NCBI RefSeq assembly: GCF_000452705.1
Contig: NZ_CP007014.1
Span: 4,742,501 to 4,806,500 of the forward strand
Direction: 5' to 3'
Origin: Pseudomonas syringae CC1557
Lineage (GTDB): Bacteria > Pseudomonadota > Gammaproteobacteria > Pseudomonadales > Pseudomonadaceae
Length of the DNA: 64,000 nt
This document shows positions 11,098 to 60,344 of this stretch, piece by piece (position 1 is the first letter of the stretch; each line of letters begins with the position of its first letter). A program made the position numbers and the translations under genes. The notes under the pieces are model-generated. The model did no database searches. It worked only from the letters and a program-made list of their open reading frames with translations, and was not told the origin of the DNA.

Positions 11098-11120
11098 GCC
11101 CGCCTGAAGCAGGAACCACG

Positions 11121-21053: not shown

Positions 21054-21122
21054 ATGCCCGTTTGCGCCGACAAATTCCGCTCGTTGCTCGCGAAGCCCCG
21101 ATTACCGGGCCTTCGCAAAAGT

Positions 21123-21138
21123 TGGCACAGCATCTGCA
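21123..21138 (+). promoter_or_regulatory. sigma54 promoter of crcZ
   Basis: TGGCAC-N6-TGCA: the invariant GG (21124-21125) and GC (21136-21137) are exactly 10 nt apart, as RpoN requires. Transcription should begin at about 21149. Confidence 0.9.
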
Positions 21139-21148
21139 ATATGTCTGA

Positions 21149-21508: not shown

Positions 21509-21677
21509 TAGCTTCCAGGCTAAAAGTGAAACCGGCTCTTGAGACATGGCTCCAGGCCATAGTTTGTTCCTTCCGCGACAGCTTCCTACACCATCCCTCG
21601 ACTAAATGCTAGAATCCCGACCCATCATGCGGTCATTCCCCGTTTTTGGCCGAATATTCCTTCAAACAGTGCATCCC

Positions 21678-42531: not shown

Positions 42532-43614
42532 TTGGACCAATGGTTTGTCATGAACGCGGGCAAGCAGCTCGGCCCGATGGATGCAGCGGCAGCGCGATTG
42601 ATTGCGCGTGAGGCGCCCGGTGCCTGGTGCTGGAAACAAGGCATGCCGGACTGGCAGCCGATTTATCAGGTTCAGGAAGTGCGCGCCGTCAAAAAGGACG
42701 GCGTAACACCCTTCCCGCCCCCGGCACCCGAGATGGCCCAGCCAAGGCCTTCCGGCCTGCCCGTGCAGGCTTCCCGGACGCCTGCGCCGGTTCCCGCTGC
42801 AGTACCGGGCAAACGCCCCTCATTCACTCCGGACCCGAACGCTTCGGGTGGCTTTGGCTTGTCCCAGACCACCGATGGCGTGGACTTCAAGCTGTACGGC
42901 TCGGAGACCCAGTTCATCGAGCTGGAACTTGACCCCGGCGAAAGTGCGGTCGCCGAAGCCGGTGCGATGATGTACAAAACCTGCGACGTGCAAATGGAGA
43001 CCATCTTCGGCGACGGCAGCAATCAGTCGCCGGGGCTGCTGGGCTCGTTGCTCGGCGCAGGCAAACGCATGCTCACCGGCGAAAGCCTGTTCACGACGGT
43101 GTTTTCGCAACAGGGTACCGGCAAGGGCCGGGTTGCCTTTGCTGCGCCCTACCCCGGCACCATCCTGCCGCTGAACCTGCGCGATTTCGGTGGCAGGCTG
43201 ATCTGCCAGAAAGACAGCTTCCTGGCCGGCGCCAAAGGCGTATCCATCGGCATCCAGTTTCAGAAGAAGATCCTGACCGGGCTGTTCGGCGGTGAGGGTT
43301 TCGTCCTGCAAAAGCTTGAAGGCGATGGCTGGGTTTTCGTGCACATGGGTGGCACGGTGCGCAAGATCGAACTGGCATCAGGCGAAGGCCTTGATGTCGA
43401 TACCGGCTGTCTCGCGGCCATGACCCAGACCGTGGACTACGACATCCGTATGGTCGGTGGTGGCATCAAGTCGATGCTGTTCGGCGGCGAAGGCGTATTT
43501 TTTGCCAGACTGACCGGCCCCGGCACGGTGTGGCTGCAAAGCCTGCCGTTCTCTCGTCTGGCCGGGCGCATGCTGGCAGCAGGCCCGTCCGGTGTGGGCA
43601 GAAGCGAACGCTGA
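42532..43614 (+). CDS. GYF-like domain plus AIM24 family protein
   Basis: A 360-residue two-domain protein. The N-terminal ~50 residues (WFVMNAGKQLGPMDAAAAR ... WKQGMPDWQPI) are a GYF_2-type domain. A Pro-rich linker (60-105) leads to an AIM24/TIGR00266 domain (about 115-355), a beta-rich fold with glycine-rich ends (SLLGAGKRMLTGESLFTTVF, GGGIKSMLFGGEGVFF). It starts at TTG 42532 after a GGGAG site. AIM24 proteins occur near Ter genes; here it is followed by terF on the same strand. Molecular function unknown. Confidence 0.85.
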   Translation: MDQWFVMNAGKQLGPMDAAAARLIAREAPGAWCWKQGMPDWQPIYQVQEVRAVKKDGVTPFPPPAPEMAQPRPSGLPVQASRTPAPVPAAVPGKRPSFTPDPNASGGFGLSQTTDGVDFKLYGSETQFIELELDPGESAVAEAGAMMYKTCDVQMETIFGDGSNQSPGLLGSLLGAGKRMLTGESLFTTVFSQQGTGKGRVAFAAPYPGTILPLNLRDFGGRLICQKDSFLAGAKGVSIGIQFQKKILTGLFGGEGFVLQKLEGDGWVFVHMGGTVRKIELASGEGLDVDTGCLAAMTQTVDYDIRMVGGGIKSMLFGGEGVFFARLTGPGTVWLQSLPFSRLAGRMLAAGPSGVGRSER

Positions 43615-43668
43615 TCGTCGTCATTTGACCGAGGGCCGTGTGACGCCCTCCCTTGCCAAGGAAGAACC

Positions 43669-44901
43669 ATGCAAATCGCTCAAGGCCAACGCATTCCGCT
43701 TTCGACCCTGATTCAGGGCACCGATTTCACGCTGTCGATCAGCATAAAATCGCCTCATGTAATCGACTACGTGTGCTTCGGCATCGACGCCAACGGCAAG
43801 CTGTCAGACGACCGTTACATGATCTTCTTCAACCAGCCAGACAGTCCGTGCAACGGCGTCAAGCAGGTGAACGGTGGCGACTTTCAGCTCTCGCTGTCCC
43901 GTTTGCCCGCGTCCATAGACCGACTGGTGTTCACGGCGTCGATTGATGGCGCGGGGGCGATGAGCGATATCCAGTCCAGCCACTTCAGCATTCAGCAACA
44001 AGGTCGCGAAGCGGCACGTGGCGAGTTCTCCGGTGCAACCTTCTCCGCCGAGAAAGCCATTATGGTGGCCGATATCTACCGCAAGAACGGTGAATGGCGC
44101 ATAGCCTCCAACCTGCAAGGCTACAACGCCGGCCTGGATGCGCTGGTCGTGCATTTTGGCGGTGAAATTGCCGACGCTCCGCCTCCCCCGCCCGCACGAA
44201 TTTCTCTTGAGAAGAAGATTGCCAACGCTGCGCCGCAACTGATCAGCCTGGCGAAAAAAGCTCAGATCAGCCTGGAGAAAGCCAGACTGACCGACACCAA
44301 GGCCCGAGTCGGCCTGGTGCTGGACGCGTCAGGTTCGATGAACCCGCAATACACGCGCGGCCATGTGCAGGAAGTGGTTGATCGCCTGATTCCACTGGCG
44401 GTGCATTTCGACGACGACGGCGCGCTGGACTGCTGGGCATTCGGTGCCAAGCCGCAGCAACTCGGTTCAGTCACGCTGGGCAACTTTCAGGACTTCATCA
44501 AGACTGACCATGGCGGCTGGAAAGACTGGGAACTGGGCGCACGCGTCAACGACGAGCCCAAGGCGATGCGCATGGTCATCGACTACTACAAGAAGTCAGG
44601 CGACAAGACGCCGGTCTACATCCTGTTCATCAGCGACGGCGGCGTGCATCAGGATCGTGAAATCACCAAACTGATGACCGAGGCCGCCAAACTGCCGATT
44701 TTCTGGCAATTCGTGGGGCTGGGTGGACGCGGTTACGGGATTCTCGAAAAGCTTGATGACATGGGCGGTCGCGTAGTCGACAACTGCAACTTCTTCGCCC
44801 TGGACCGCCTGGATGAAATCCCGGAAGATAAGCTGTATGACTTGCTGATGGAGGAATTTCCGGACTGGCTGAAAGCAGCCAAAAGCGCCGGGATTTTGTA
44901 G
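43669..44901 (+). CDS. terF: TerF-like protein (TerD-like plus VWA domain)
   Basis: A 410-residue protein matching TerF architecture. A TerD-like beta-sandwich (about 1-165) is followed by a PPPPP and EKKIANA..LISLAKKAQISLEK linker and a von Willebrand A domain starting near 212 with MIDAS DASGS (219-223). The TerD part lacks the DLDAS and GDNRTG calcium-site motifs found in terD and terE, so it may not bind calcium. GGAAG precedes the ATG. It converges on the terZ-E operon across a shared terminator. Confidence 0.88.
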   Translation: MQIAQGQRIPLSTLIQGTDFTLSISIKSPHVIDYVCFGIDANGKLSDDRYMIFFNQPDSPCNGVKQVNGGDFQLSLSRLPASIDRLVFTASIDGAGAMSDIQSSHFSIQQQGREAARGEFSGATFSAEKAIMVADIYRKNGEWRIASNLQGYNAGLDALVVHFGGEIADAPPPPPARISLEKKIANAAPQLISLAKKAQISLEKARLTDTKARVGLVLDASGSMNPQYTRGHVQEVVDRLIPLAVHFDDDGALDCWAFGAKPQQLGSVTLGNFQDFIKTDHGGWKDWELGARVNDEPKAMRMVIDYYKKSGDKTPVYILFISDGGVHQDREITKLMTEAAKLPIFWQFVGLGGRGYGILEKLDDMGGRVVDNCNFFALDRLDEIPEDKLYDLLMEEFPDWLKAAKSAGIL

Positions 44902-44930
44902 CGTATTCAGCAATCGGAACCTCAACTATC

Positions 44931-44972
44931 GTGCGACGCTCCGCGTCCTCTCTGCGACGCAGAGCGTCGTGT
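44931..44972. repeat. REP-like palindrome
   Basis: GACGCTCCGCGTC and GACGCAGAGCGTC form an inverted pair after terF, the same core as the REP cluster at 27392-27493. Confidence 0.7.
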
Positions 44973-45012
44973 AGCCTTGTAACTATCCTACCAATGCTTT
45001 CAAAAGCCCCAA

Positions 45013-45046
45013 TAAAAAACCCCGCCATCGCTGGCGGGGTTTTTTA
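45013..45046. terminator. bidirectional terminator between terF and terE
   Basis: ACCCCGCC / GGCGGGGT stem with a 6-base loop, flanked by A6 and T6. It ends both the terF transcript and the long minus-strand ter operon. Confidence 0.92.
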
Positions 45047-45063
45047 TCGGGCGCTGATCGGGT

Positions 45064-45642
45064 TTAGCCGATTGCAACACCGTGGGCTTCTGCCAGCGGT
45101 TTCAGACCGCCGACAAACCCTTGGCCGATGGCCTTGAACTTGAACTCTTCGCCGTTGCGATACAGCTCGCCGAAGATCATCGCGGTTTCAGTCGATGCGT
45201 CTTCCGACAAGTCGTAACGAGCGATTTCCTTGCCGTCAGACTTGTTCACTACACGAATGTAAGCGTTCGACACCTGACCGAAGCTCTGCTTGCGCTCTTC
45301 AGCCGAGTGGATAGTGACGGCAAAAACCAGCTTCTTGACCGCAGCGGCCAGGCCGGTGAGCTTGACCGTTACCGACTCGTCATCACCTTCGCCAGCGCCT
45401 GAACGGTTGTCGCCCAAGTGCTCGACCGAACCATCAGCCGATTTCTTGTTGTTGTAGAAAATGAAGCTGTTGTCATCCAGCACCTTGCCATTTTCGCCAA
45501 CGATGAAGATGGACGCGTCCAGATCGAACTCGGTGCCATCGGTAACCCGTGGATCCCAACCCAGACCAACGGTGATTTCTGTCAGGCCAGGAGCCTCTTT
45601 CGACAGGGAAACGTTACCGCCTTTACTCAGACTTACTGCCAT
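45064..45642 (-). CDS. terE: TerD family protein TerE
   Basis: A 192-residue single TerD domain. Canonical calcium-site motifs are present: FDLDASIF near residue 40 and [13 protein letters not shown] near 77-89, plus the family end [21 protein letters not shown]. The N-terminus ([18 protein letters not shown]) and C-terminal GG(L)KPLAEAHGV favour terE over terD. Role: cytoplasmic calcium-binding component of Ter stress complexes. It lies 37 nt after terD; last gene of the operon. Confidence 0.93.
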
Positions 45643-45679
45643 GCTCGTAATCCTTTCTATAAAAGTGATTGGACGCGAA

Positions 45680-46255
45680 TCAGAAATTCATGCCGAACGA
45701 GTTGGCCAACGCTTTCAGGCCACCCTGGAAACCGCTACCGACGGCGCGGAATTTCCACTCACCGTTGTTGCGGTACAGCTCGGCGAAGATCATCGCGGTT
45801 TCGGTCGAAGCATCTTCAGCAAGGTCGTAACGAACCACTTCAGCGCCCGACTTTTCATTCACTACACGAATGAACGAGCGGCTGACCTGACCGAAGTTCT
45901 GACCACGGTTTTCCGCGTCATGAATAGTCACAACGAACGCGATCTTGTCGACATCAGCCGGGACGCGCGTCAGGTCGACCTTGACCACTTCGTCATCGCC
46001 ATCGCCTTCACCGGTACGGTTGTCACCGGTGTGCTCGACGGAGCCATCAGCACTTTTAAGCTGGTTGTAGAAAATGAAGTCAGCTTCACTGCGGACCTTG
46101 CCATTGGCGCCCAACAGGAATGCGCTGGCGTCCAGGTCGAAAGCCTGGCCGTCAGTGGCGCGAGGGTCCCAGCCAAGACCGATGAGAACATTGGTCAGGG
46201 TAGGGTCGGTTTTCGACAGCGAAAGGTTGCCACCTTTTTGCAGAGTCAAAGCCAT
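45680..46255 (-). CDS. terD: tellurium resistance protein TerD
   Basis: A 191-residue TerD domain with [23 protein letters not shown] and [16 protein letters not shown] motifs, closely matching enterobacterial TerD ([16 protein letters not shown]...). It binds calcium in characterised homologues. It is 26 nt downstream of terC and 37 nt upstream of terE; the two paralogues are clearly diverged, not a recent duplication. Confidence 0.95.
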
Positions 46256-46281
46256 GATCGTTTATCTCCTTTATCCAGTGT

Positions 46282-47316
46282 TTACGCTTTTTCTTCAGCC
46301 GGTTCTTCTTTGCCCGGGAAGAGCAGGCTGGCGACGATACCGATGATCAGCACGACGACCACAACCAACAGGCTGGCGTTGGCGCTGATTTCGTAACCGT
46401 GATGGAACAGGTGGTTGGTAGCATTCAGGCCCAGTTTCAAGGCGATGAAGAACAGCAGCGCAATAACTGCTTTCTCCAGATGCACCAGGTAGCGTTTCAG
46501 GGCTTCAAGTACAAAGTACAAGGTACGCAGGCCGAGAATCGCGAACAGCATGGCCGAGAACACGATCAGCGGCTCGCGGCTCACTGCGATGATTGCAGGC
46601 ACGGAGTCGAACGCGAACAGCACGTCGGAGATTTCCGCCACAACCAGGCACAGGAACAGCGGAGTAGCGAACAGTGCGCCTTTGGCGGCCAGCGAGATGC
46701 CGGCGTTTTCAGGCTTTTTGACTTCTTCTTCCAGAACCGAACGACGCACGAAGAAGTTGCTGCCGTGCAGCTTTGGCCACACCGGGAACAGTTTCTTGGC
46801 GAAGCGATAAGCCATGTGCTGCGAGTAGTCGACTTCTTCGTCGTCGTCATCGCCGGCACGCAGCATCATGATGGCTGTCCAGGCAACGATGACCGCAAAC
46901 ACCACTTCGACCCAAGGGCCCAGCGCCAGCAGGCCTGTACCGATTGCGACGAAGATGCCTCGGAAAACGATGGCACCGATGATGCCCCAGTACAGAACAC
47001 GGTGGCGCAGGCCATCCGGAATCTTGAACCAGGAGAACAACGCCATGAACACGAACAGGTTGTCGACGCTCAGCACTTTTTCCAGCGCGTAACCGGTGAC
47101 GAACAGTGTGGCAACTTCAGAGCCGTGCTGCACGTACAGGAAACCGGCGAAAGCCAGCGAAATGGCGACCCAGAAGACCGACCACGCCGAGGCTTGCGCC
47201 AGGGTGATCGGCTTGTTTCCCCGGTGGGAGAACATGTCGATAGCCATGGCCGTAATGGCCAGACCGACGAAAACCGCCATCGTGAGTGGAGGGAAGCCTA
47301 GAGAGGTGCTTTCCAT
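46282..47316 (-). CDS. terC: TerC family membrane protein
   Basis: A 344-residue integral membrane protein with about nine helices. It carries the TerC signatures: acidic intramembrane residues in SVDNLFVFMALF (near 85-95) and FAFDSVPAIIAVSREP (near 225-240). TerC proteins are linked to metal (often Mn) export or metalation and form the membrane anchor of Ter complexes. A central charged loop (GDDDDEEVDYSQH) is cytoplasmic. AAGGAA precedes the ATG; the gene follows terB by 25 nt. Confidence 0.95.
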   Translation of the reverse strand: MESTSLGFPPLTMAVFVGLAITAMAIDMFSHRGNKPITLAQASAWSVFWVAISLAFAGFLYVQHGSEVATLFVTGYALEKVLSVDNLFVFMALFSWFKIPDGLRHRVLYWGIIGAIVFRGIFVAIGTGLLALGPWVEVVFAVIVAWTAIMMLRAGDDDDEEVDYSQHMAYRFAKKLFPVWPKLHGSNFFVRRSVLEEEVKKPENAGISLAAKGALFATPLFLCLVVAEISDVLFAFDSVPAIIAVSREPLIVFSAMLFAILGLRTLYFVLEALKRYLVHLEKAVIALLFFIALKLGLNATNHLFHHGYEISANASLLVVVVVLIIGIVASLLFPGKEEPAEEKA

Positions 47317-47341
47317 TTAACTGCGTTCCTTAGGGTAAAAA

Positions 47342-47791
47342 TTACAGGTCAAAATCGGACGGGTTCAGGCCAAGCTCGCGACAGATCGTGCGGCAGACTT
47401 CCCGCTCCTTCTCATCGAAGCTGCCATCAGCGCCACCGATTGCACAGCAGACGCGCACCAACAGACGTGATGCATCTTCTTTCTTCTTGATCTTGCCGAT
47501 GGTTTTCAACGCCTCGGCACGGCCAATTTCGTAATCGAACTCAAACTTGGAGCAGGCTTCCTGGAAACCCTGAATGACCTCCTTCATGTCAAAAACTTTC
47601 AGTTCCTGAGAGTTCTGAATGAAGCCGGCCATTTTCTGCTTTTCACTGGCGCTGATGTCGCCATCAGCGGCAGACACCAGTGCACAACCGGAAACCACAG
47701 CGTCCATGAACTCGCGATTCTTGAACTTGGAAACTTCGTTTGCCAGCTTGTCGCGGGCCGCTGTTGCGTTTGTTTTCAACCAGTCCAGCAT
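47342..47791 (-). CDS. terB: TerB family protein
   Basis: A 149-residue helical TerB domain with the repeated acidic signatures VSAADGDISASEKQKM (near 37-52) and GGADGSFDEKEREVC (near 123-137), likely metal-binding. TerB partners the cytoplasmic face of TerC in known systems. ATG 47791 follows a GGGAG; the longer in-frame start at 47833 is rejected. Confidence 0.93.
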   Translation of the reverse strand: MLDWLKTNATAARDKLANEVSKFKNREFMDAVVSGCALVSAADGDISASEKQKMAGFIQNSQELKVFDMKEVIQGFQEACSKFEFDYEIGRAEALKTIGKIKKKEDASRLLVRVCCAIGGADGSFDEKEREVCRTICRELGLNPSDFDL

Positions 47792-47841
47792 GTCTATCTC
47801 CCATGAGGCGGCACAGCCAGCCAGAAATACCACGGTATTGT

Positions 47842-49023
47842 TTACTTGGAACCAGCAGCCCAGCGCATGCCCCAGCCGTAGGCTTTGTCCATGTTGCTGT
47901 GGCCGTTATGGAAATCCACACGACGCGTCACCTTGACCGCACCGTTGTCGTTTTCCAGCAAGGCAATTGCACACATGCCCTGACGGCCGCCTTCTTCGTT
48001 AAGACGAACTTCAATGGGCGGCTGGCCTGGCGCATGGATGGTGACAACCCCGTCGGTCTCTTTCCAGTTCGGTGCACCTTCATAGATGAACGCGTAAACC
48101 AGAATGCGCCGGATCTTGCCCCAGTGCGCGCCGTTGATGTGCAGCCACTCACCATCGCTGACCGACCCGGTCCGGTCATCGCCCATCAGTTTGATGAACG
48201 GTTCGCTGTTGAGCGATCCGAACGAGTTGCCCAGCGCCTGAACCGCCCCTTTGGAGCCGTCCTGCAATTCGAAAAGGCAGCCTACATCAAGGTCGATGGC
48301 ATTGCTCTTCTTCATCGAGAAGAAGCCGCCGCCCTTGCTGTCGTTGCGGCGATTCCAGTTCAGGTTGACCCTGATCTCGCCAAAACCGGCACTGGTCTTT
48401 TCCAGACTGATCGAGGCACGGGTCTTGTCCAGCGTGATCTTGCTCAGGCTGACCGTCGACTTGGGCGCTGGAGCTGGTGCAGGTGCAGGTGCAGGTGCAG
48501 GTGCAGGTTGATCCTGAGGCGCGGCGACTTCAACACCAAAGTTTTTCGCCAGAGGCTCCAGCCCGCCCGCAAAACCCTGAGCAACACAGCGGAATTTCCA
48601 GGCGCCCTGACGCAAGTAGAACTCGCCCAGAATCAGCGCGGTTTCTTTCATGCCGCTGGTAGGGATATCCGCTTCGATATCCCCGGTGATGCTCAATGCC
48701 AGGCGCGACACACTGTCGAAGCTGGCCTTGTTCTCATAGATGGTCGCCGTCAGGGCGACCTTCTCGATGACTGAATCCAGACGGCTCGGGTCAAGCGTGA
48801 ACACTGCACGACCTGCCGACGCTTCCGTCTGCTGGAGCGCACCGTTGTTCACGCTTTTCTGGCCGTAGAAACACATGTCCTGATCGCCACGAACCTTGCC
48901 TGAGCCAGTCAGCAGGAATGCGGACACATCGATATCCGCGCCTGCCAGCGGAGAGTAGCTGACCTCGACCGTCAACGGCCCGGTAGCGACTGGCGCATTG
49001 GCGCCTGGGACAAGTCGGGTCAT
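47842..49023 (-). CDS. terA: TerA: tandem TerD-like domains
   Basis: A 393-residue protein: first TerD-like domain (1-170) with a partly eroded metal motif (DIDVSAFLL kept, no GDNRTG), an Ala-Pro linker (173-188) encoded by GGTGCA-type hexamer repeats, and a second TerD-like domain (about 195-393) retaining IDLDVGCLF and GDDRTG. This is TerA-like. The start overlaps the terZ stop (ATGA). A simple repeat in the linker makes length variation likely. Confidence 0.9.
   Translation of the reverse strand: MTRLVPGANAPVATGPLTVEVSYSPLAGADIDVSAFLLTGSGKVRGDQDMCFYGQKSVNNGALQQTEASAGRAVFTLDPSRLDSVIEKVALTATIYENKASFDSVSRLALSITGDIEADIPTSGMKETALILGEFYLRQGAWKFRCVAQGFAGGLEPLAKNFGVEVAAPQDQPAPAPAPAPAPAPAPKSTVSLSKITLDKTRASISLEKTSAGFGEIRVNLNWNRRNDSKGGGFFSMKKSNAIDLDVGCLFELQDGSKGAVQALGNSFGSLNSEPFIKLMGDDRTGSVSDGEWLHINGAHWGKIRRILVYAFIYEGAPNWKETDGVVTIHAPGQPPIEVRLNEEGGRQGMCAIALLENDNGAVKVTRRVDFHNGHSNMDKAYGWGMRWAAGSK
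48473..48509. repeat. hexanucleotide tandem repeat in terA
   Basis: About five to six copies of GGTGCA (preceded by GGAGCT variants) in a row, read on the minus strand as Ala-Pro codons. Unit length is a multiple of three, so slippage would lengthen or shorten the linker without frameshift. Confidence 0.8.
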
Positions 49024-49613
49024 GCGCGTACAGCTCCGATGGCCAGTTCGACCAGATCATCTGCCGTACGGCCATTGGTAACCTGACCGACAGCCGTGAA
49101 ATCCCAGCCCGCTGGCGTGCGCGACAGATAAGACATCACGACACCGGTATGCTGACCTTTTTCGGACAGGTCGAAGCGGCCCAGCTCGTTACGGCTGCCC
49201 AGATCAACGATGCGGCAGTAAGCATTGGCGACTTTTTCGAAGTTCTGCCCGGTGAACGAGTTGACGGTGAACACTAGGTATTTGACTGCAGCAGGCAGCT
49301 TCTCCAGATCAACGCTGATGGTTTCGTCATCGCCAGCGCCTTCGCCGGTGCGATTGTCACCCGAGTGTTGAATGGCACCGTCGCGCGATTGCAATTGACG
49401 GAACCAGACGAGATCGAGGGGCTTCTTGTCGGCATCGAGCATGATGCAGGAAGCATCAAGGTCGATATCGCCACCACCACCGCCAAGCAACTTGCCGAAG
49501 AAACCGCTGGCTTTTTCAGGGTCCCATCCAAGGCCCATGCTTACTTTCTTGAGGCCTGTGCCAGCGGTTTTCTCGAGTGAGATCGTCTGGTTCTTTGCCA
49601 AAGTGAGTGCCAT
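49020..49613 (-). CDS. terZ: TerD family protein TerZ
   Basis: A 197-residue TerD-fold protein. It has IDLDASCIML and [13 protein letters not shown] motifs plus an insert (DPEKASGFFGKLLGGGGG) absent from terD/terE and typical of TerZ. ATG 49613 is preferred to an in-frame codon 12 nt upstream. The stop overlaps terA. First of the terZABCDE block, 47 nt after the HAD gene. Confidence 0.92.
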   Translation of the reverse strand: MALTLAKNQTISLEKTAGTGLKKVSMGLGWDPEKASGFFGKLLGGGGGDIDLDASCIMLDADKKPLDLVWFRQLQSRDGAIQHSGDNRTGEGAGDDETISVDLEKLPAAVKYLVFTVNSFTGQNFEKVANAYCRIVDLGSRNELGRFDLSEKGQHTGVVMSYLSRTPAGWDFTAVGQVTNGRTADDLVELAIGAVRA

Positions 49614-49660
49614 TTTTCGCTCCATGTGGACTACGGAATTCGGATAAAAGTGTTACAGCC

Positions 49661-50407
49661 TTACCGTGTTGGCCCGTCATTACCATGAGGATTGTGTAAC
49701 TTGGCGTTAACAGGCCCTTTATAGCGGCCTCTACGCCACGTCGGATGGAACAACCGCCAATGCGCATCCTGAGCAGCGGCGAGCAATTCGTGATCACCCC
49801 GGGTGTCGCCCCAGGCACGAACCCGGAACTGTGAAAGCGGCCCGTAAACACTTTCCAGGCGCGCGACCTTGGAGTCGCACCGGCAATTACTGCCTTCGAT
49901 CAACCCGGTCAGCTTGCCGTCGATCACTTCCAGATTGGTGCCGATCAGCTGGACTTTCAAGCGATCAGCGAAGGGTTGCAGGACCATAGCAGGCGATGCT
50001 GAACATAGCGTGACAATGGCGCCCTTCTCGATTTCAGCGGCAATGGATTCCAGCGCAGCGGGGCGCATCAGGCGTTTCCAGTGCGACTGGCAGAAGGCTT
50101 CTGCCTTTTGCTGCAGCCATTGCACTTCAACACCGCTCAGAAAAGCCTTGATCAGGCGGCCTTTGAGTTCATCACGGGTCAGGCGCTTGGCCAGGTAGCC
50201 GAGGCTCGGCAGCACCAGCCGCGCCATGCGCACAGAGAAAGCACGTTGCCCGAAGGCGAATTTGAGAAACGGGACGAAGCTGTCGTGGCGGGTAATGGTC
50301 CCGTCGAAATCGAACACCGCCAGCAGGCGTTGTTCCACTTCGATTTCAAGGTCCGGCCCTACAGGCGCAAGATCAGGTTCTACGGTTTCAAGGTCAGGTT
50401 CTATCAT
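49661..50407 (-). CDS. HAD-IB family hydrolase (ter-linked)
   Basis: A 248-residue haloacid-dehalogenase phosphatase of the SerB/IB type: nucleophile motif FDFDGTITRHDSF near residue 33, TLCSASPAMV (motif II Ser), and WGDTRGDHELL (motif IV Asp pair). An odd N-terminal extension has a 7-residue repeat (EPDLETV, EPDLAPV, GPDLEIE). The start abuts the stop of the aldolase gene (TAGATG). It is probably a phosphatase for the metabolite made by the upstream enzymes; the substrate is unknown. Confidence 0.85.
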   Translation of the reverse strand: MIEPDLETVEPDLAPVGPDLEIEVEQRLLAVFDFDGTITRHDSFVPFLKFAFGQRAFSVRMARLVLPSLGYLAKRLTRDELKGRLIKAFLSGVEVQWLQQKAEAFCQSHWKRLMRPAALESIAAEIEKGAIVTLCSASPAMVLQPFADRLKVQLIGTNLEVIDGKLTGLIEGSNCRCDSKVARLESVYGPLSQFRVRAWGDTRGDHELLAAAQDAHWRLFHPTWRRGRYKGPVNAKLHNPHGNDGPTR

Positions 50408-51358
50408 CTAGCTAACTGCCTCAGCGAGTCGAATGCTGGCATCCATGATCGAAGCGGGTGCGGGTAACACTCCATGCCATTTGGCGCGCTCCATGATGTG
50501 GGTTGCCCATTTGTAATGGGTCGCCGGTTCACACATAGCATCGTTGTACTTGAACACGGCGGGAGCCACAGAGTTCAAAATCATCCGGGCGGAGTTCATG
50601 TCCTCCAGACTGACGCGTAGCGCATTCTGAATGATATTGACCTGCGAAGGGTGAATTGCCGTCTTGCCGACCAATCCATTGGTTATATCCAGCGCCAGCT
50701 CGTGCTTCAGGATATCTGGCGTGGCAAGTTGCTCGAACACCGGTGCGGTCAGGGCAAACCCCTGCGCGCCCATTACCCCTGCCAGCATGGGTATGACATA
50801 GCCCATGGGCGTCGAGTACAGCGTCATGGCCGGGTTGCGGCGCAGTCCCAGACAGCCCATCAGGTCATTGCCACCGATGCGCAGGGCAATGATCCGTTCA
50901 TTGAGACTGGCCTTCAAGGCTTGACCGAGCTCGACCATCGCCCCGGGATTGAACACTTCCGGTGTTTCCAGCGTAGGCATCAAGGCCAGCGCCGGATTGG
51001 TGACGGCCTGCTCCCAGCTGTTCAGGTTGGTCAGCGAGAGCTTGGGAACCACGAACCCGTCGACATGGGCCATCAATGGCCAGTCGTTGAGAATACGCGC
51101 CATTGCTGCATCACGCGGACGCACGAACAGCAGTGGGCCATTGGCTGGCCGGCCGCCGCGATCCTGAATGCGCGTTAGTACCTGGCGCAGGTTGAGCAGC
51201 GCGGTATCGACATCGATCAACGCGACTGCATCTTCCAGGCACACCACCAGTGAACGCAGCTCGGGAATCTTGTCGCCGCACACGACATCGACAATGTCGT
51301 CACGGGTAGCGGGCATGTACAGCGTTGCCCCCAGCGCATAAGGCGAGAATAAGGCCAT
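50408..51358 (-). CDS. HpcH/HpaI aldolase (CitE-like)
   Basis: A 316-residue TIM-barrel of the citrate-lyase beta/HpcH family: VVCLEDAVALIDVD (Asp/Glu metal region), FVRPRD, MPTLETPEV (metal Glu), RIGGNDLMG, and KTAIHPSQV near the C-terminus. It is embedded in the ter biosynthetic set and so likely makes or breaks a C-C bond in the predicted Ter-linked metabolite, not citrate metabolism. It overlaps the stop of the StiP gene by 1 nt (TAATG). Confidence 0.87.
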   Translation of the reverse strand: MALFSPYALGATLYMPATRDDIVDVVCGDKIPELRSLVVCLEDAVALIDVDTALLNLRQVLTRIQDRGGRPANGPLLFVRPRDAAMARILNDWPLMAHVDGFVVPKLSLTNLNSWEQAVTNPALALMPTLETPEVFNPGAMVELGQALKASLNERIIALRIGGNDLMGCLGLRRNPAMTLYSTPMGYVIPMLAGVMGAQGFALTAPVFEQLATPDILKHELALDITNGLVGKTAIHPSQVNIIQNALRVSLEDMNSARMILNSVAPAVFKYNDAMCEPATHYKWATHIMERAKWHGVLPAPASIMDASIRLAEAVS

Positions 51359-52452
51359 TAGCCGAGACTCCGTATGATGGTCACCGCCCGGTAAGGGCCC
51401 AGGGCATCGCCGACTTCCTCGACGGGGATGCCCGCCTTCTCTGTCAGATGCAGCAGCAATTGCACATCACTGTCAGTCAGATTGCGTACCAGCACATGAT
51501 CCGGCACACGACGCATCACCGCCCTTGTCGCCTCGGCAATACCCGGCTTGACCCGATTGAGGTTATTCACCCCGAAGCGTTCCGCAAGGCTGCCGACCAC
51601 CTGCGATGCAACGCTATTGAGTTCGACTCGCTGCGTCTGCGTCCAGGGGGTCAGCATCAGCGTCGAACACTTTTGACGACGCTGGCGCTCGATCTGTTCA
51701 ATGAAAGCACGCGTGACGTCGTGGTCCTGTAAATGCTCATACACCACGCAGCCATGCAGCCCGCCGTCCGCCGGCCAGATTGAACGCGACACCAGCCCGG
51801 ACACCGTTGCGCCAAGGATGCCTGAGGGAATCACCCAGTCTTCCGCCGAGGCCGCCAGCCACGCGCTGCCACACGGATCGGCCAGCACCACCAGCCGAGG
51901 ATCTGCCGGAAAGCGTGCATCACCCGCCAGGCTGCGCCGGATTTCCCCGGAGATCGCGCCTTTGCCGGTCCAGCCATCGACAAACACGATGTTCTGCGCG
52001 CCATGGGCCTGAATGATTGCTTCCAGTGCCACCTTGTCGATGCCGCGATCACGCACAATGCTGATGCCGTAGTGATGCGCTTCACGGCCCAGATCGATCA
52101 ATGCCCGACGCAGCAACACACCGAGCGGCAAACCGGCACGCACGAACGACACGAGAATTATTTCAGACCCTGTGCATTGCCTGTCCAGCGCCTGCGCCAA
52201 CGCCTGAACATCGATTGCCATGCGCGCGCCATTCTGACTGAGCGCACGCTCGTAAAGCGCCTTGTGAGCGTCGCTGGGCGCGGACTCTTCACTGATCATT
52301 TCCGAATAATGTTTCTGCCCTGTCTGGATCAGGCGTTCCTTCTCTTCGACACGGGTGGACTGCATCTCGATACTGCGCAACAGGAAGTGCACGTCATCCT
52401 TGAGATAGCTACCGCTACCCACCGTCTCAAGCCCGTGAACGGGATCACTCAT
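51358..52452 (-). CDS. StiP family / PELOTA-like protein (ter-linked)
   Basis: A 364-residue protein. The N-terminal ~270 residues form the StiP (PRTase-like) domain: a PRPP-loop-like FVDGWTGKGAISGEI near 175-190, and GVLLRRALIDLG. The C-terminal ~70 residues resemble a PELOTA-type RNA-binding domain (GIPVEEVGDALGPYRAVTIIRSLG). The name cysteine protease StiP in databases has little support here: I see no Cys-His pair with protease context. ATG 52452 lies within the preceding HAD gene (8-nt overlap); longer frame extensions are discarded. Confidence 0.8.
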   Translation of the reverse strand: MSDPVHGLETVGSGSYLKDDVHFLLRSIEMQSTRVEEKERLIQTGQKHYSEMISEESAPSDAHKALYERALSQNGARMAIDVQALAQALDRQCTGSEIILVSFVRAGLPLGVLLRRALIDLGREAHHYGISIVRDRGIDKVALEAIIQAHGAQNIVFVDGWTGKGAISGEIRRSLAGDARFPADPRLVVLADPCGSAWLAASAEDWVIPSGILGATVSGLVSRSIWPADGGLHGCVVYEHLQDHDVTRAFIEQIERQRRQKCSTLMLTPWTQTQRVELNSVASQVVGSLAERFGVNNLNRVKPGIAEATRAVMRRVPDHVLVRNLTDSDVQLLLHLTEKAGIPVEEVGDALGPYRAVTIIRSLG

Positions 52453-53203
52453 GCGCAGCTCCGACAAACATTTTCGCCAGCTGACTGCGGGCAGGCGTCG
52501 CCCACCAGTGGCACTCTTCCATGAAACCCAGGTCGGTAATGCTGTCGCCAAAACCCAATACCGGACGCTCGCCGTTGATCGCCTTGTCGCGGCGCAACCA
52601 TTCCTGGACGGCGTAGCGCTTGGACAGCCCTTCGGGCAGAAAAGCCAGGTTGTTGCCGTTACCGTGAATGTGCATGTCATCAAGCAGGCCGCGGGCCTGC
52701 ACTTCAGCCAGCACCTGCGTGAGGATGCTGTCATCGCTCTCGTTGTGCTTGGTCACGACGTAATGAAACAACTGCGCCTCTTCCACCACCCAGCCGCGTA
52801 ATGAAAAGCCCATTTCCTGACCGATCGCCAAGGTTGCAGCAGACAGTTCGGGCAGACGCGACTGATAGACGGCCAGGGTCAGTTTCATCTGCTCGTTCCA
52901 GGCAGGGTCGAGCTGCCCCATGACATCGAGTATCACACCACCGTGCGAACAGATCGCGCCCGCCGTAAACGGCAGCTTGACCCGACTGTAGGCTTCGACA
53001 CTGCGCGCCGTTACTGGCACCACATCGGAATGCGCCAGTAACCAGTGGGCGAAAGACTTCTGCACATTGGTCATGTAACCGTTGGCATTGCCGCTGACGT
53101 CGAGCGTCGCGACGTGTTTTTCAATATCAGCCGGGGTTTTGCGGGCGGTCTGGAACAGGGTGTCGTCCAGATCGACGAAGATCAGCGGGCGGTCGTTACT
53201 CAT
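52445..53203 (-). CDS. HAD family hydrolase (ter-linked, first)
   Basis: A 252-residue Cof-type/sucrose-phosphatase-like HAD: LIFVDLDDTLFQTARK (nucleophile Asp near residue 10), CSHGGVILD, KRYAVQEWL (Lys) and GFGDSITDLGFM (metal-binding Asp). ATG 53203 has GAGGT upstream and overlaps the phosphoribosyltransferase gene by 8 nt. With the StiP gene starting inside its own end it belongs to a tightly coupled set. Confidence 0.86.
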   Translation of the reverse strand: MSNDRPLIFVDLDDTLFQTARKTPADIEKHVATLDVSGNANGYMTNVQKSFAHWLLAHSDVVPVTARSVEAYSRVKLPFTAGAICSHGGVILDVMGQLDPAWNEQMKLTLAVYQSRLPELSAATLAIGQEMGFSLRGWVVEEAQLFHYVVTKHNESDDSILTQVLAEVQARGLLDDMHIHGNGNNLAFLPEGLSKRYAVQEWLRRDKAINGERPVLGFGDSITDLGFMEECHWWATPARSQLAKMFVGAAHE

Positions 53204-54329
53204 CACAGATGACCTCGGCATTCAGCGCTTCGATCAGCTCGGCAGGCACGGCCTGCCTGGGGGTCTCGGTGCAGATCAGCACCCGGTCGAACTGACCCGG
53301 GCGCACGTTGTACAGGAAGTTGGGAATGCCCAGCCCGTAGTTGTCCGAGAACGACAGCGCATGATCGATAGCATGACCAATGGCAATAGGCGAGCGACTG
53401 GTGGAACTGAAATGCACGTCGGCGCCGGCTTTTTCCAGACGCTCGGCGAGCAGAAACGGACGCCAGACAAACTCACTGGTGCCGACCACCAAAACCCGTT
53501 CGCCCTTGTTGACCACAAGGCCCGGCGCCAGCGTATCGGCGACCGACAGCACGCCCATACGGCCCCAGTCATTGGCGGTGACCAGTGGCCAGTCACCCAT
53601 TGCGACAGTGCCCACTTCCGGCATGTCCGGCAACGGTGCGCTGACGTCTTCATCAAAGGAATAGGAGCCCTGCAACAATGACACCTGCTCGGCCAACGCG
53701 CCCATCGAGGTACTGACAGCCCCGGCCGACCAGTCGGTCAGCACGCAGGTCACCACCCGCTCGATCTTGTTCAAGCCGGCCTCGACCAGCGACTGATGAA
53801 GATTGATGAAGGTCTTGCCAGTGGAAGCCTCATCATCGACCAGCACCAGCGAACGGGCGTTGAGCATCATTTCGCGCATCGCCGGGTCAGTCGGCAGATG
53901 AATCAAATGAGCGCTGGCATGGCTGTGTTCTTCTTCGAAACGGGCGAACAACTCGGTGCCGGTCGGATGGCGAGTGCTGACCAGATACAGCGCATCAGGC
54001 CGCGTTGCGCTGTAGGCGCGGTGAACGCCTGCGCCAAGGCCGACTGCCGTTTCGGCCATGCCGATGACCAGCACCGGGCCCGGCAGGTCTGCCGGGATCT
54101 TGTGTGCCAGGTCCTGAAAACTCTTGAGCATAACGCTCGGACGCGCCGGAATATGGCGTCCCAGCACTCGCGATACAAACAGAAACGCGCGCTTCGGATT
54201 ACGCCGTTCAGCAAAGCCAAACAGTGAATCCGGGGCAATGGTGGACGAATCGACGCTGACATCGAGGCGACCACGAAGCAGATCAGCACGAAGCTTTGTA
54301 GGTGTGGAAAAAGCTGCGCTGCTGTCCAT
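53196..54329 (-). CDS. phosphoribosyltransferase (PRTase_2/TRSP type)
   Basis: A 377-residue protein with a phosphoribosyltransferase domain (about 20-200) having the PRPP motif LVLVDDEASTGKTFINLHQSL, and a TRSP C-terminal domain (about 250-377) containing VLVVGTSEFVWRPFLLAERLE and FSSTSRSPI. This pair is characteristic of the Ter-linked biosynthetic module. ATG 54329 has an AGGAA upstream; the TTG 33 nt earlier is not favoured. It could transfer phosphoribose to a base-like acceptor; the substrate is unproven. Confidence 0.85.
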   Translation of the reverse strand: MDSSAAFSTPTKLRADLLRGRLDVSVDSSTIAPDSLFGFAERRNPKRAFLFVSRVLGRHIPARPSVMLKSFQDLAHKIPADLPGPVLVIGMAETAVGLGAGVHRAYSATRPDALYLVSTRHPTGTELFARFEEEHSHASAHLIHLPTDPAMREMMLNARSLVLVDDEASTGKTFINLHQSLVEAGLNKIERVVTCVLTDWSAGAVSTSMGALAEQVSLLQGSYSFDEDVSAPLPDMPEVGTVAMGDWPLVTANDWGRMGVLSVADTLAPGLVVNKGERVLVVGTSEFVWRPFLLAERLEKAGADVHFSSTSRSPIAIGHAIDHALSFSDNYGLGIPNFLYNVRPGQFDRVLICTETPRQAVPAELIEALNAEVICDE

Positions 54330-54380
54330 CGATAAATTCCTGATTAACTGATACCTGCTCAAATGGCAGGAAGCCCGGCC

Positions 54381-55520
54381 TCATTGACGTGAGGCTTCCA
54401 AGAGCCATAACGATGACTGGGCGATGCGTGAGATTTCTGTAGTGGTATACGACCTTTCCGGACGGGCATGCGGCGCATCAATGCGGCAGGCCTGTAGAAA
54501 GGACAACAATAGTGCGGACTTGACCGCGAAATTCATGTTCTGCCCGTCCGGCACGGTAGACGTCACCATGCCGATCACTGCACCACCGTTATCGAACAGT
54601 GGGCTGCCACTGGAGCCCGGCTGAATGGGCGCAGTGAACTGGAACAGGCTGGCGTCGTTGTGCAGGCCGAACAGGCCGGAAATACCGCCTTGCGTCACCT
54701 GCAGACCGCCACCGGAAATCGACGCCAGTGGATAACCCAGAACCGCCACGTTATCACCCGGCTCGCAGCCCTGCCCGTCCCGGAATGTAACCGGAGACAA
54801 CAGCGGAGCACCCTGCACGCGCAGCAACGCGATGTCATTGCGGCGGTCGATCACCACGGGCTCGGCCTTGTAGCGACCGTCCAGCGAGTTGATATGAAAC
54901 ACCGTCATGTCTTCGATGACATGCGCGCAGGTCAGGACATGTGCCGGACCGACCACAAACGCTGTGCCGGTCGCCGATTCGTGCCGCGGCCCGCCGCCTG
55001 AACCGCCAGCAGGACGACGCGGATGGCGATCATCCACTTCCAGGCCTATCTTGCGCCCGAACGCCGACAGCCCATACGCCGAGCCTTCGCTCAACGCACG
55101 AAACTTCCATTGATCATTACGCTTATAGAACTCGCCGATGATGATCGCTGCTTCGCCATTGCTGCGCAGATCAACGCGATGTTCGATATCGTTGTTAACT
55201 TGCAGATGCAGGCTGGCAATCTCGGCGACCGGACCGGTCGCCGCGAATACATACACCATCAGCAACACCCGGTCGCTGTCGGCAGGTAGCCGATCCAGTT
55301 TGAGCGTGCAGCCCACGTTCTGCGGGCCGCCGCTCCATTCCATCCAGCTCTGCTCCTGATGCAGCAGCGCCGGTTCGCCCATGGGCAGGCGTTTCTCGTT
55401 GACCGGCAGCAGGGCAACGGCAGCATATTCACCAAAAATCGAAGACTTGCCGCTCTCCAGATTCCAGGTGCAGTGAGCGTTTGCTAAAGCAGTGTTTGCA
55501 CCTGGTGCCAGAAGCTTCAT
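54381..55520 (-). CDS. TerD-like domain fused to trypsin-like serine protease
   Basis: A 379-residue fusion. Residues 1-160 form a TerD-like beta-sandwich lacking DLDAS and GDNRTG but ending in the family-typical IIIGEFYKRNDQWKFRALSEG. After a Gly/Arg-rich linker (165-180) comes a trypsin-like domain with His200 (LTCAHV), Asp229 (RNDIALL) and Ser304 (PGSSGSPLF). No signal peptide is seen, so the protease is probably cytosolic, unlike DegP/HtrA. GGAGG precedes the ATG. It lies between the ATP-grasp and PRTase genes in the operon. Confidence 0.87.
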   Translation of the reverse strand: MKLLAPGANTALANAHCTWNLESGKSSIFGEYAAVALLPVNEKRLPMGEPALLHQEQSWMEWSGGPQNVGCTLKLDRLPADSDRVLLMVYVFAATGPVAEIASLHLQVNNDIEHRVDLRSNGEAAIIIGEFYKRNDQWKFRALSEGSAYGLSAFGRKIGLEVDDRHPRRPAGGSGGGPRHESATGTAFVVGPAHVLTCAHVIEDMTVFHINSLDGRYKAEPVVIDRRNDIALLRVQGAPLLSPVTFRDGQGCEPGDNVAVLGYPLASISGGGLQVTQGGISGLFGLHNDASLFQFTAPIQPGSSGSPLFDNGGAVIGMVTSTVPDGQNMNFAVKSALLLSFLQACRIDAPHARPERSYTTTEISRIAQSSLWLLEASRQ

Positions 55521-55574
55521 GCCCGATCCTCCGTGATTAGAGCGATTAGTGATAGCAAAAATCTATTATCCTGA

Positions 55575-56573
55575 TCAAACCTCGGCCCGTACAGCGACGG
55601 TGATGGCCTTGATCCGGATATCCTCCAGCCAATGTGTTTCCGGTTCTTTCAGCCCAAGACGCCGCGTGGCGAAAATACCGGGCAGATTGACATCCGTGTG
55701 GCGCGTATAGCCAATGCCGCCTGAATAACGCGGGTTAATCTCCAGCAAACGTGGCTGACCGTCAGCATCATCACGGGTCTGCACATTGATCAGCCCGTCG
55801 CAGACAAAATGCTCGGCCGCGCGCACCGCCAGTTGCACGGCTGCGCTGTCGCGCTCAAAAGTCTGGTTCAAGCCCACCTTGCGTCTGCCGACATACGCCA
55901 CCGCCTTGCCACCCTCGCACACCATGTCCACCGAACATTCACTGCCCGGCATGTAAGGCATCAGCAGCATCGCTGGCAGATCGTCGGACTGGCGGTAAGC
56001 ATCAAGGTACGCGCTAAAAGTTGTCTCGCGGGCATCCGGGTTGGCGAAACAGCGAAATGCATCGGCTTCTGCCTTGAAGCGCCAGAATCCCTGACCATAA
56101 ATCCCGACCACCGGCTTGATGCAGACCTCGCCAGAAACCGCCAAGGTATCGTAAGCCGCTTGCAGCTCCTCGGCATTGCACGCGGTGATCGCCGGGATGC
56201 ACGCCAGCCCAGCCGCTTCGGCAGCAGCCGTGAAGCGACTCTTGTTGTCGACATCCAGGAAAGTTTGCAGAGACGTTCCCCCCGTTACAAGGTCCAACCC
56301 CTCAGCAATGAAGCGTGCACGCTGCGCTTCATAGAGGCCGCCCACCCGCCCGGCGATAATGACTTTCACACCCAACGAGCGAGCATTTTCCAGCACCCAG
56401 TCAATCCGTTCCTCGTTATCGAGCGGCTCTTGCAACGCCACATCAGCCAGACCGGTAATTTCGGAGCGCTGCTGACGATGAGAAGCGATAATGCGCACCG
56501 ACGCAGGCAAGGCATCACGCGCGCCGATAATCACGTCGCGCTGGCTGGCCTGCCCTTCAAGGAACCAAATCAT
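55575..56573 (-). CDS. ATP-grasp enzyme (ter-linked)
   Basis: A 332-residue ATP-grasp ligase-like protein: an N-terminal Rossmann-like preATP-grasp domain (1-110), lid/ATP-binding part (CIKPVVGIYGQGFWRF near 150), and the C-terminal metal/nucleotide motif RLLEINPRYSGG (near 276-287). It is the first gene of the long minus-strand ter transcript; GGAG precedes the ATG. Probably joins a carboxylate and an amine in the predicted Ter metabolite. The specific reaction is not known. Confidence 0.85.
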   Translation of the reverse strand: MIWFLEGQASQRDVIIGARDALPASVRIIASHRQQRSEITGLADVALQEPLDNEERIDWVLENARSLGVKVIIAGRVGGLYEAQRARFIAEGLDLVTGGTSLQTFLDVDNKSRFTAAAEAAGLACIPAITACNAEELQAAYDTLAVSGEVCIKPVVGIYGQGFWRFKAEADAFRCFANPDARETTFSAYLDAYRQSDDLPAMLLMPYMPGSECSVDMVCEGGKAVAYVGRRKVGLNQTFERDSAAVQLAVRAAEHFVCDGLINVQTRDDADGQPRLLEINPRYSGGIGYTRHTDVNLPGIFATRRLGLKEPETHWLEDIRIKAITVAVRAEV

Positions 56574-56693
56574 GTCAATCTCCGGAAGACTGCGCCGCCC
56601 GAAACGGCCTTGTCGAATTTTGTAATAACTGTTTTGCTTCGAAATGTTCGGATTAAGGCAAAGTCACGCAATTTTAAAATAGAGGACGCTGGT
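56574..56693. promoter_or_regulatory. ter operon / DUF1523 divergent promoter region
   Basis: 120 bases, A/T-rich (TTTTGTAATAACTGTTTTGCTTCGAAATG and ATTTTAAAATAGAGG), must carry the promoter for the whole 11.5-kb minus-strand ter unit. I see no recognisable OxyR, Fur or sigma54 site. Confidence 0.45.
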
Positions 56694-57267: not shown

Positions 57268-57288
57268 AGCCCGATCCGTGATCGGGCT
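57268..57288 (-). terminator. terminator after the VapC45-like toxin gene
   Basis: A 9-bp stem AGCCCGATC / GATCGGGCT with a 3-base loop, then TTTT on the minus strand, overlapping the stop of the toxin gene. On the plus strand it could also stop the DUF1523 transcript. Confidence 0.75.
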
Positions 57289-57694
57289 AGATGTGGAGCT
57301 GCTTGAACTTGCGTGCTGCGGAGAACGTCCATGGCACACGAAAAGCCGCGCCGCCTTCGATCAATAAGGCCTGCTCGGTAATTGAAGGCCACCACCTGAC
57401 CAGATTTTCTGCCTTGTTCCAGTAGGTCATTTGGCCCCACTGCTTGGCGAGGCAGAAAATAGGCATACCACACTCCCGGAATGCCTGGCGCTCAGCGTCT
57501 CCCTTGGAAAACTTGTCCTGAGATACTACCGCCCACCCGCCTTCTTTTTTGAGGCGGGTCACCCAGTCAATATCTGCGGAATTGGCGGGAAATCTTTCAC
57601 GCAGTGATACCACTGAGTGACCTTCATTCTTGGTCAGTTCGTTGAGCGCTCTGGCGATAGCGGACGGCAGGTTGTTATCGATCAGAAAATTCAA
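57287..57694 (-). CDS. VapC45-like PIN-domain toxin
   Basis: A 135-residue PIN-like protein. The first acidic residue is in FLIDNNLP (like the DUF5615/VapC45 group), then SADIDWVTRLKKEGGWAVVSQDKF with further acidic positions, typical of an RNase fold with four acidic residues. It overlaps the upstream gene by 4 nt (ATGA), as usual for a toxin-antitoxin pair. Activity is inferred; no experimental counterpart is known to me for this exact protein. Confidence 0.78.
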   Translation of the reverse strand: MNFLIDNNLPSAIARALNELTKNEGHSVVSLRERFPANSADIDWVTRLKKEGGWAVVSQDKFSKGDAERQAFRECGMPIFCLAKQWGQMTYWNKAENLVRWWPSITEQALLIEGGAAFRVPWTFSAARKFKQLHI

Positions 57695-59939: not shown

Positions 59940-60344
59940 TCACTTACAAAGTATAGGTGAAGAAGTTAAGCACCCACCACTCTGAACCCATGTGAGCGCA
60001 CCAGCTCCAATTGCAGGGGTTACAACATAAGTAGCCGTCGCTAATGTTGTCGCGGTAGGCGTTACCGTAACTTGACCATCTTTTACTGCAACGCTGGCCA
60101 CATGAATGGTTGCCTGTGTATCTGGAATACTATTCGTTTTCAAATTACAGCCAGTCGCTGTACCTGTTTCTTGAATGCAGGATGCTACAGCAGTTTGATA
60201 CGTATTAGCTAAAGACACGACCTCAGAGTACTTAGCCTTGAGGGTGTACGAGTTGTACTGCGGAATCGCCACTGCCGCCAAAATACCAACAATCGCGACA
60301 ACGATCATCAGTTCGATCAGCGTAAAACCTTTTTGTACATTCAT
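59940..60344 (-). CDS. pilA: type IV major pilin
   Basis: A 134-residue type IVa pilin. The short leader (MNVQKG) is cleaved before F7 by Pil[26 protein letters not shown] is the signature helix with Glu5. The C-terminal disulfide loop is CLTSSPILC; a second pair lies around [11 protein letters not shown]. The sigma54 promoter upstream fits PilSR control. It is divergent from pilBCD. Confidence 0.94.

Follow-up and report, generated by a model that had tools for sequence, protein, structure and literature searches.

A complete Ter stress system with a predicted phosphoribosyl pyrophosphate-dependent module at one chromosomal site in a Pseudomonas clade

What does the set of biosynthetic genes that accompanies a Ter stress operon make, and how did the whole block come to lie between nadC and pilA in the plant-associated Pseudomonas syringae CC1557? 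We examined this locus in a stretch of 64,000 nucleotides of contig NZ_CP007014.1 (positions 4,742,501 to 4,806,500; G000:C1:4742501-4806500 in our genome set), referred to here as the window. The block combines terZABCDE, seven biosynthetic genes upstream of it, and a pair of opposing genes that encode GYF-AIM24 and TerF. On balance, we favor the reading that it is a complete Ter stress system of the known kind, inherited in one Pseudomonas clade, whose phosphoribosyl pyrophosphate (PRPP)-dependent module would make a ribosyl or nucleoside signal. The observed basis of this reading is gene content, gene overlaps, conserved catalytic motifs, the predicted folds of two enzymes, the chromosomal site, and clustering in a tree. 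The Ter system itself is already known, and the locus is one more instance of it. Our additions are the identity of a solved phosphatase, a predicted fold for StiP, a core trio of genes, and an apparently single, old insertion.

Read from right to left, the minus-strand genes encode an ATP-grasp ligase, a TerD-trypsin protein, PRTase_2+TRSP, a HAD-IIB protein, StiP+PELOTA, a CitE-like lyase, a HAD-IB protein, and then TerZ, A, B, C, D, and E; on the plus strand, the GYF-AIM24 and terF genes converge on this operon. An earlier note, made from the letters alone, had listed these genes in this order, and open reading frames (ORFs), Pfam, and NCBIfam placed every one of them where it had been named. 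The best Pfam domain scored 83 to 344 bits for 14 of the 15 genes, HAD-IIB being the fifteenth. TerD-family Z, A, D, and E stand with TerB and TerC in one operon, and PRTase_2+TRSP, StiP+PELOTA, HAD, the C-C lyase, and ATPgrasp_Ter are all present together. Because nearly all listed relatives of StiP have ∼364 amino acids, its over-long ORF of 458 amino acids was given a start at 52452. Adjacent genes overlap by 8 bp (PRTase_2/HAD-IIB and HAD-IIB/StiP), 1 bp (StiP/lyase), and 4 bp (terZ/terA), and the lyase and HAD-IB genes abut, as in one translationally coupled operon, which these overlaps would fit.

The same gene set is found on plasmids. The Ter locus of a Klebsiella plasmid (L036, CP052373; PMC8115787) likewise has terZABCDEF together with ATP-grasp, PRTase_2, HAD-IIB, StiP, and lyase genes in the same order, but its biosynthetic genes are divergent from ter and continue to TerW, vWA, phosphatase, and kinase genes, whereas those of the window run co-directionally into terZABCDE. 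The window also has a TerD-trypsin gene and, between the lyase and terZ, a HAD-IB gene, and, unlike Klebsiella with its TerW, none of terW, terY, and telA was among the window genes examined. Closer in layout are the Pseudomonas megaplasmids pBM908 and pRBL16 (L035, L145), where the order is ATP-grasp, trypsin, PRTase_2, HAD-IIB, StiP, lyase, HAD, and terZABCDE; five pBM908 proteins are 70 to 77% identical to those of the window. The host of pRBL16 is P. citronellolis SJTE-3, described as non-pathogenic in PMC8779313. In the stretches of these two plasmids that were shown, no gene was named AIM24, and no further search for it was made.

The identity of the HAD-IIB protein offers a handle on the chemistry. 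This protein matched no Pfam family at an E value of 0.01, and the NCBIfam HAD-IIB model placed it at 2e-6, below the model's cutoff. In contrast, phmmer matched it to two distinct PDB sequences (6d3v/6d3w and 6cj0) deposited as "Trehalose phosphatase" (382 bits; E value, 8e-114; residues 7 to 251). The aligned crystal stretch has only two cysteines, 85 and 231 counted from its methionine, and Cys 85 and 231 are the ones named, in excerpts of PMC6838324, for the P. aeruginosa extra-chromosomal trehalose-6-phosphate phosphatase (ecTPP). At 99.6% identity, tblastn placed the crystal stretch on plasmid p2017-45-137A of P. aeruginosa, where it is part of a Ter module and has PRTase_2 on one side and StiP on the other. 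On pBM908 and pRBL16 the counterpart in the same gene order is annotated "Trehalose-6-phosphatase." As judged by sequence, then, HAD-IIB is an ortholog of the crystallized P. aeruginosa enzyme, which is encoded in a plasmid Ter module, an identification that is new here. The two are orthologous, but the crystallized enzyme has been named and assayed for trehalose-6-phosphate, whereas its genome context says Ter pathway. A literature search, with most subscription journals outside its reach, found no paper tying ecTPP to Ter. One enzyme of the pathway has thus already been crystallized, and purified in active form, under a different name, which opens a direct way to look for its real substrate among compounds made by the two neighboring transferases. 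As a separate observation, the p2017-45-137A module (L144) holds two IS1182 transposases, one in the gap between ATP-grasp and PRTase_2 and one in the gap between the first TerD gene and terB.

Which of the module genes belong together can be seen from their distribution. Across 229 genomes of the same class, StiP passed its cutoff in 8 and PRTase_2 in 8; these were the same 8 genomes, with both genes on the same contig within 1.5 kb, and the lyase scored above 240 bits in 6 of them. Among the seven class genomes besides that of the window, the HAD gene was part of the trio in six and was not found in L124, a short contig. In a GTDB scan by StiP, 80 of 116 loci were kept, and HAD-IIB adjoined StiP in all 80. 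It is important to note that hits with less than 35% coverage (most genes) or less than 45% identity (TerD family) were not printed for these loci and that a scan based on StiP cannot reveal members of the P. syringae complex that are without the module. In genome G278 (L122, 7471-12878) the trio is compact, with StiP before HAD, and the gene for a 7TMR-DISM hybrid histidine kinase overlaps the HAD gene; this kinase is a possible sensor for the product of the trio. The Acinetobacter jumbo phage vB_AbaM_ME3 (L037) carries PRTase_2, HAD, and StiP in order, and genes nearby are annotated as vWA, as chemical-damaging agent resistance protein C, and as a membrane protein. Its proteins are 25 to 35% identical to those of the window, with no lyase or ATP-grasp annotated beside the trio, and its Ter set is called relatively complete in excerpts of PMC7824862. 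Both scans of viral contigs gave an identical pair of hits, one of which equals ME3 in length. From these sequence comparisons, PRTase_2, HAD-IIB, and StiP appear as a core that stays together, a point that is new here; the three are kept as a set even in a jumbo phage and in a genome where no ter gene was detected close by.

The two putative transferases of this core were modeled with AlphaFold from shallow alignments of 54 and 41 rows; in each alignment, every row except one was 67 to 96% identical. The StiP model has a phosphoribosyltransferase core and an L7Ae-type tail (pLDDT, 89.3), as fold matches also indicated, with a strand-loop-helix at VDGWTGKG. The PRTase_2 protein is likewise predicted to have a phosphoribosyltransferase fold, with a DDE..TG.T PRPP loop that reads VDDEASTGKT; the fold barely probes its TRSP part. 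The first structural row for StiP was CriT-CrpP (8a0m), with a Z score not separable from those of PyrR and HGPRT. A PDB search with the single StiP, PRTase_2, lyase, and ATP-grasp sequences gave no match. Profile searches led from PRTase_2 to UMP synthase (E value, 0.011), from StiP to L7Ae, 40S S12, and a colicin (0.2 to 0.5), from the lyase to solved citrate/acyl-CoA lyases (best, 3qll; 1.5e-12), and from ATP-grasp to a carbamoyl-phosphate synthase. For StiP, whose current name is cysteine protease, the model thus shows a phosphoribosyltransferase that carries an L7Ae-type tail, which is new here. If the model is right, the picture of StiP shifts from a protease to a PRPP-fold protein with an RNA-binding-type tail.

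How the block came to its site was examined in 149 Pseudomonas genomes, with PRTase_2 as a proxy for carriage of the module; it was present in 23. Linkage was scored in the 90 genomes that had a pilB match at an E value of 1e-150, with nadC represented by its first match in each. In 45 of these 90, nadC and pilB lay within 60 kb (the 45 unlinked genomes include contig breaks), and the module lay between them in 5 of the 45 (G000, G018, G069, G079, and G107), whose nadC proteins are the nearest to that of the window (100 to 92%; next, 90%). The earlier note had called the block an insertion, a claim that would fall if the nadC-pilA interval were interrupted likewise in most pseudomonads. It is not, and the site is empty in most sampled relatives; what needs qualifying is the suggestion of a recent event that the word carries. 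The six shortest nadC-pilB gaps were 859 to 1,429 bp (G139, G055, G039, G020, G063, and G128), and G139 has its module elsewhere. Among the 26 places with PRTase_2 in this sample, one (G129:C39:39131-40276) has two internal stops.

The GTDB loci extend this pattern. The module was adjoined by nadC in 21 of the 80 loci and in 0 of the other 59, with pilB in reach in 15 of the 21. These records include P. syringae, caricapapayae, avellanae, congelans, amygdali, tremae, californiensis, cichorii, asturiensis, capsici, viridiflava, alliivorans, triticifolii, floridensis, ovata, cerasi, and graminis. We take most of these species to belong to the P. syringae complex. The window StiP and PRTase_2 are closest to entries from P. 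syringae, P. cannabina, and P. coronafaciens (94 to 96%), which places the window in this complex. In a PRTase_2+StiP tree (78 loci and the window), the 21 nadC-adjoining loci and the window fell on one side of a branch (SH-aLRT, 99). Because the five genomes nearest by nadC share the site and the 21 loci group with the window, we infer one old insertion, with a single entry of the block that preceded the diversification of the complex and vertical inheritance since; the PRTase_2+StiP tree was read for this by itself rather than against a species tree. GYF-AIM24 lies between nadC and terF or terE in all 21 loci. Three of them (L042, L043, and L077) have no terF match of ≥45% identity between GYF-AIM24 and terE, and terF may be lost there.

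The site itself has changed by more than one event. In all six comparison loci that lack the module at this position (L129 to L134), a tRNA-Thr(CGU) gene was found in the nadC-pilA interval, and G079 has both the module and this tRNA, the latter near pilA. For genomes G000, G018, G069, and G107, no match to tRNA-Thr(CGU) above 76% identity was found, which points to more than one change; in the three of these four genomes that were checked by ARAGORN, the best match was a tRNA-Arg. The statement of the earlier note that the block lacks an integrase agrees with our scan, in which no integrase was found among the ORFs scanned and no tRNA in the window. Even with up to 5 mismatches allowed, the 22-base end of tRNA-Thr had no copy in the window, and a search for direct repeats near the two block ends gave just short pairs within each end region. 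Other elements occupy the site in some genomes. Beside the Ter block of G079 (L135/L136, G079:C9:78971-90845), ∼11.8 kb is framed by the intact tRNA-Thr and, at the other end, 22 bases that repeat the 3' end of this tRNA; the stretch carries a tyrosine integrase beside the tRNA, plus a TrfA-like gene. In G022, the cargo at the site resembles, on visual inspection, a set of polysaccharide genes.

What would the module make? The idea of a signal from the Ter biosynthetic module reportedly goes back to Anantharaman et al. in 2012. A nucleoside-like signal is restated in excerpts of PMC7824862, and as others have proposed, a small ribosyl or nucleoside signal is the most likely product. PRTase_2/TRSP and StiP would both be PRPP-using transferases, building a ribosyl (nucleoside-like) compound from which HAD-IIB would take off the 5'-phosphate. 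The CitE-like lyase, HAD-IB, and the ATP-grasp protein (a carboxylate-amine ligase) might then trim or extend the aglycone. TerD and TerB proteins may bind the compound or metal and, with the membrane protein TerC and the TerF/AIM24 pair, would change the envelope. In agreement with the earlier note, the literature searched here names no product.

Several observations weigh against this reading. Standard PRPP loops have two acidic residues; the StiP loop VDGWTGKG lacks two adjacent ones and has a single acidic residue, invariant in 54 sequences, and StiP may therefore not be active. Of the nine rows in the Foldseek list for StiP at an E value of 0.001, three were pyridoxal phosphate enzymes, with a probability of 0.47 to 0.66. 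At an E value of 0.001, below the cutoffs, StiP was found in 12 of the 229 class genomes and PRTase_2 in 44, the latter mostly as short matches, as expected of general phosphoribosyltransferases. The module is tied to the Ter proteins by gene neighborhood, and two loci loosen that tie. In the 17 kb of G278 around the trio, tblastn detected no ter gene, and equally divergent ones could be missed there, because of the trio itself tblastn found only StiP, with PRTase_2 and HAD recognized through Pfam; in L109, no ter gene or lyase was printed in the 20 kb of the locus. The biosynthetic genes are also not needed for the tellurite phenotype, since terZ-F is enough for resistance in Klebsiella (PMC8115787) and terC and terD are the core in P. 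citronellolis (PMC8779313). Reports on metals disagree, with no change in MIC for the transition metals tested in one (PMC9933665) and Zn and Mn resistance in another (PMC12054061).

The alternative that survives best, although we consider it unlikely, is that the module carries out a PRPP-dependent ribosylation of a macromolecule, in which ribose-5-phosphate would be added to an acceptor hydroxyl and HAD would strip the 5'-phosphate, as in capsule polymerases, with the PELOTA/L7Ae tail selecting RNA. A known analogy is CriT-CrpP of H. influenzae Bcs3 (8a0m), which is also a phosphoribosyltransferase-like PRPP user paired with a HAD phosphatase but is one multidomain capsule polymerase with a glycan acceptor, unlike StiP and HAD-IIB. 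A more specific version, which we hold with less confidence, would make the trio an RNA-ribosylation machine: StiP would dock kink-turn-like RNA via its L7Ae-type tail, ribose-5-phosphate would be added, and HAD-IIB would remove the 5'-phosphate, leaving a stress-controlled mark on the RNA that is reported by the Ter proteins. In that case, the phosphatase of this machine would be the protein in the "trehalose phosphatase" crystals.

Somewhat less likely than macromolecular ribosylation in general is a role in anti-phage defense, with the compound as an infection alarm and the Ter membrane proteins blocking entry or phage growth. Phages form larger plaques on a Klebsiella terC deletion (PMC12054061), but in the same study both strains were lysed by each of the eight phages, with a change in plating efficiency reported for one. 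Phage-borne Ter genes, including the relatively complete set of ME3, are read as superinfection exclusion in excerpts of PMC7824862, and the Shango system, which contains TerB, protects P. aeruginosa (PMC10250203). Against defense, PADLOC, run on 10 of the 15 proteins, gave domain-level matches alone, to the peptidase part of TerD-trypsin and, at 14 bits, to PRTase_2, and the block holds one site across a clade, unlike typical defense islands.

That HAD-IIB is a true trehalose-6-phosphate phosphatase, with the module feeding trehalose stress protection, we regard as very improbable. The P. aeruginosa ortholog has been assayed and inhibited as such an enzyme, according to excerpts of PMC6838324, and its solved chains were deposited under that name. 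However, the OtsA-type trehalose-6-phosphate synthase (PF00982), found in 20 of the 149 Pseudomonas genomes, is absent from the genome of the window and present in only 1 of the 23 module carriers (G054), a difference that amounts to no association either way (Fisher P = 0.31). When four HAD-IIB family members were compared with Pfam and NCBIfam at E values up to 10, none hit a model for trehalose-6-phosphate phosphatase, in a search in which HMMER filters drop most weak matches; their nearest models were HAD-IIB and mannosyl-phosphoglycerate and sucrose-phosphate phosphatases. The constant pairing with StiP (80/80 loci) likewise argues against a trehalose function. With the synthase rarely present and no model match, this role was set aside and is doubtful as the biological one. 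Least probable of all, and also set aside, is a proteolytic signaling cascade of StiP and the TerD-trypsin protein, for although cysteine protease is the current Pfam and NCBI name of StiP, a trypsin-like peptidase is encoded in its operon, and Cys235 (53/54), Cys194 (52/54), and His48, 127, 150, and 233 (54/54) are kept among homologs, none of the cysteines is shared by all 54 sequences, the model is of phosphoribosyltransferase type with the strand-loop-helix described above, and the ME3 copy is annotated as a phosphoribosyl transferase.

The features of the block, from which the ribosyl or nucleoside signal is proposed to derive, are collected in Table 1.

Table 1. Coordinates in the window, strands, and supporting matches of the Ter block genes and of a conserved upstream block
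Feature	Position	Strand	Evidence
GYF_2 + AIM24 protein, first of convergent pair	42532..43614	+	Pfam AIM24 239 bits, GYF_2 36 bits
terF: TerD domain + vWA	43669..44901	+	Pfam vWA-TerF-like 281 bits, TerD 88 bits
terE (TerD family)	45064..45642	-	Pfam TerD 275 bits
terD	45680..46255	-	Pfam TerD 294 bits
terC integral membrane protein	46282..47316	-	Pfam TerC 139 bits
terB, start probably within listed ORF	47342..47833	-	Pfam TerB 83.5 bits
terA, two TerD stretches	47842..49023	-	Pfam TerD 113.5 bits
terZ (TerD family)	49020..49625	-	Pfam TerD 162.5 bits
HAD-IB phosphatase	49661..50407	-	Pfam HAD 95.9 bits; TIGR01490 106.9 bits, above cutoff
CitE/HpcH-like C-C bond lyase	50408..51358	-	Pfam PF15617 344 bits
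StiP + PELOTA, 364 amino acids	51358..52452	-	Pfam StiP 311 bits, PELOTA_1 89 bits
HAD-IIB phosphatase	52445..53203	-	phmmer E 8e-114 to 6cj0/6d3v/6d3w, residues 7-251
PRTase_2 + TRSP phosphoribosyltransferase	53196..54329	-	Intact VDDEASTGKT PRPP loop
TerD + trypsin-like peptidase	54381..55520	-	Pfam Trypsin_2 93 bits, TerD 33.5 bits
ATP-grasp ligase, first gene of operon	55575..56573	-	Pfam ATPgrasp_Ter 137 bits
Conserved non-coding block before ATP-grasp gene	56610..56669	-	Alignment of ATP-grasp/DUF1523 gap, window and 21 loci

The ATP-grasp gene and DUF1523 are 120 bases apart, and the conserved non-coding block lies in this gap. Within the block, 30 consecutive bases (56610-56639) are identical in 22 sequences, those of the window and 21 loci. 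The block was found upstream of the ATP-grasp gene in 21 of the 62 loci examined and not in the other 41, and a 34-base pattern taken from it had one genome copy at up to 3 mismatches. Scans for sigma-70-like promoters (3 versus 4.8 in shuffles) and terminators (14 versus 14.2) gave no excess, and neither Rfam at gathering scores nor ARAGORN found an RNA feature in the Ter block.

Toward its flanks, the block is bounded by the end of nadC at 42483 and by pilA at 59940-60344, with pilB starting at about 60567. The interval between the block and pilA holds DUF1523, a PIN_10/DUF433 pair, a glutathione S-transferase, and an HxlR regulator. The pair consists of overlapping minus-strand genes (57287-57694 and 57691-58383), PIN_10/DUF5615-like and DUF433/HTH_66, and resembles a toxin-antitoxin pair; it was also printed in L038, L040, and L045 among the 21 nadC-adjoining loci. 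Elsewhere in the window, Rfam listed adjoining P36 and CrcZ RNAs (20985-21540 and 10951-11098 listed) and one PrrF RNA.

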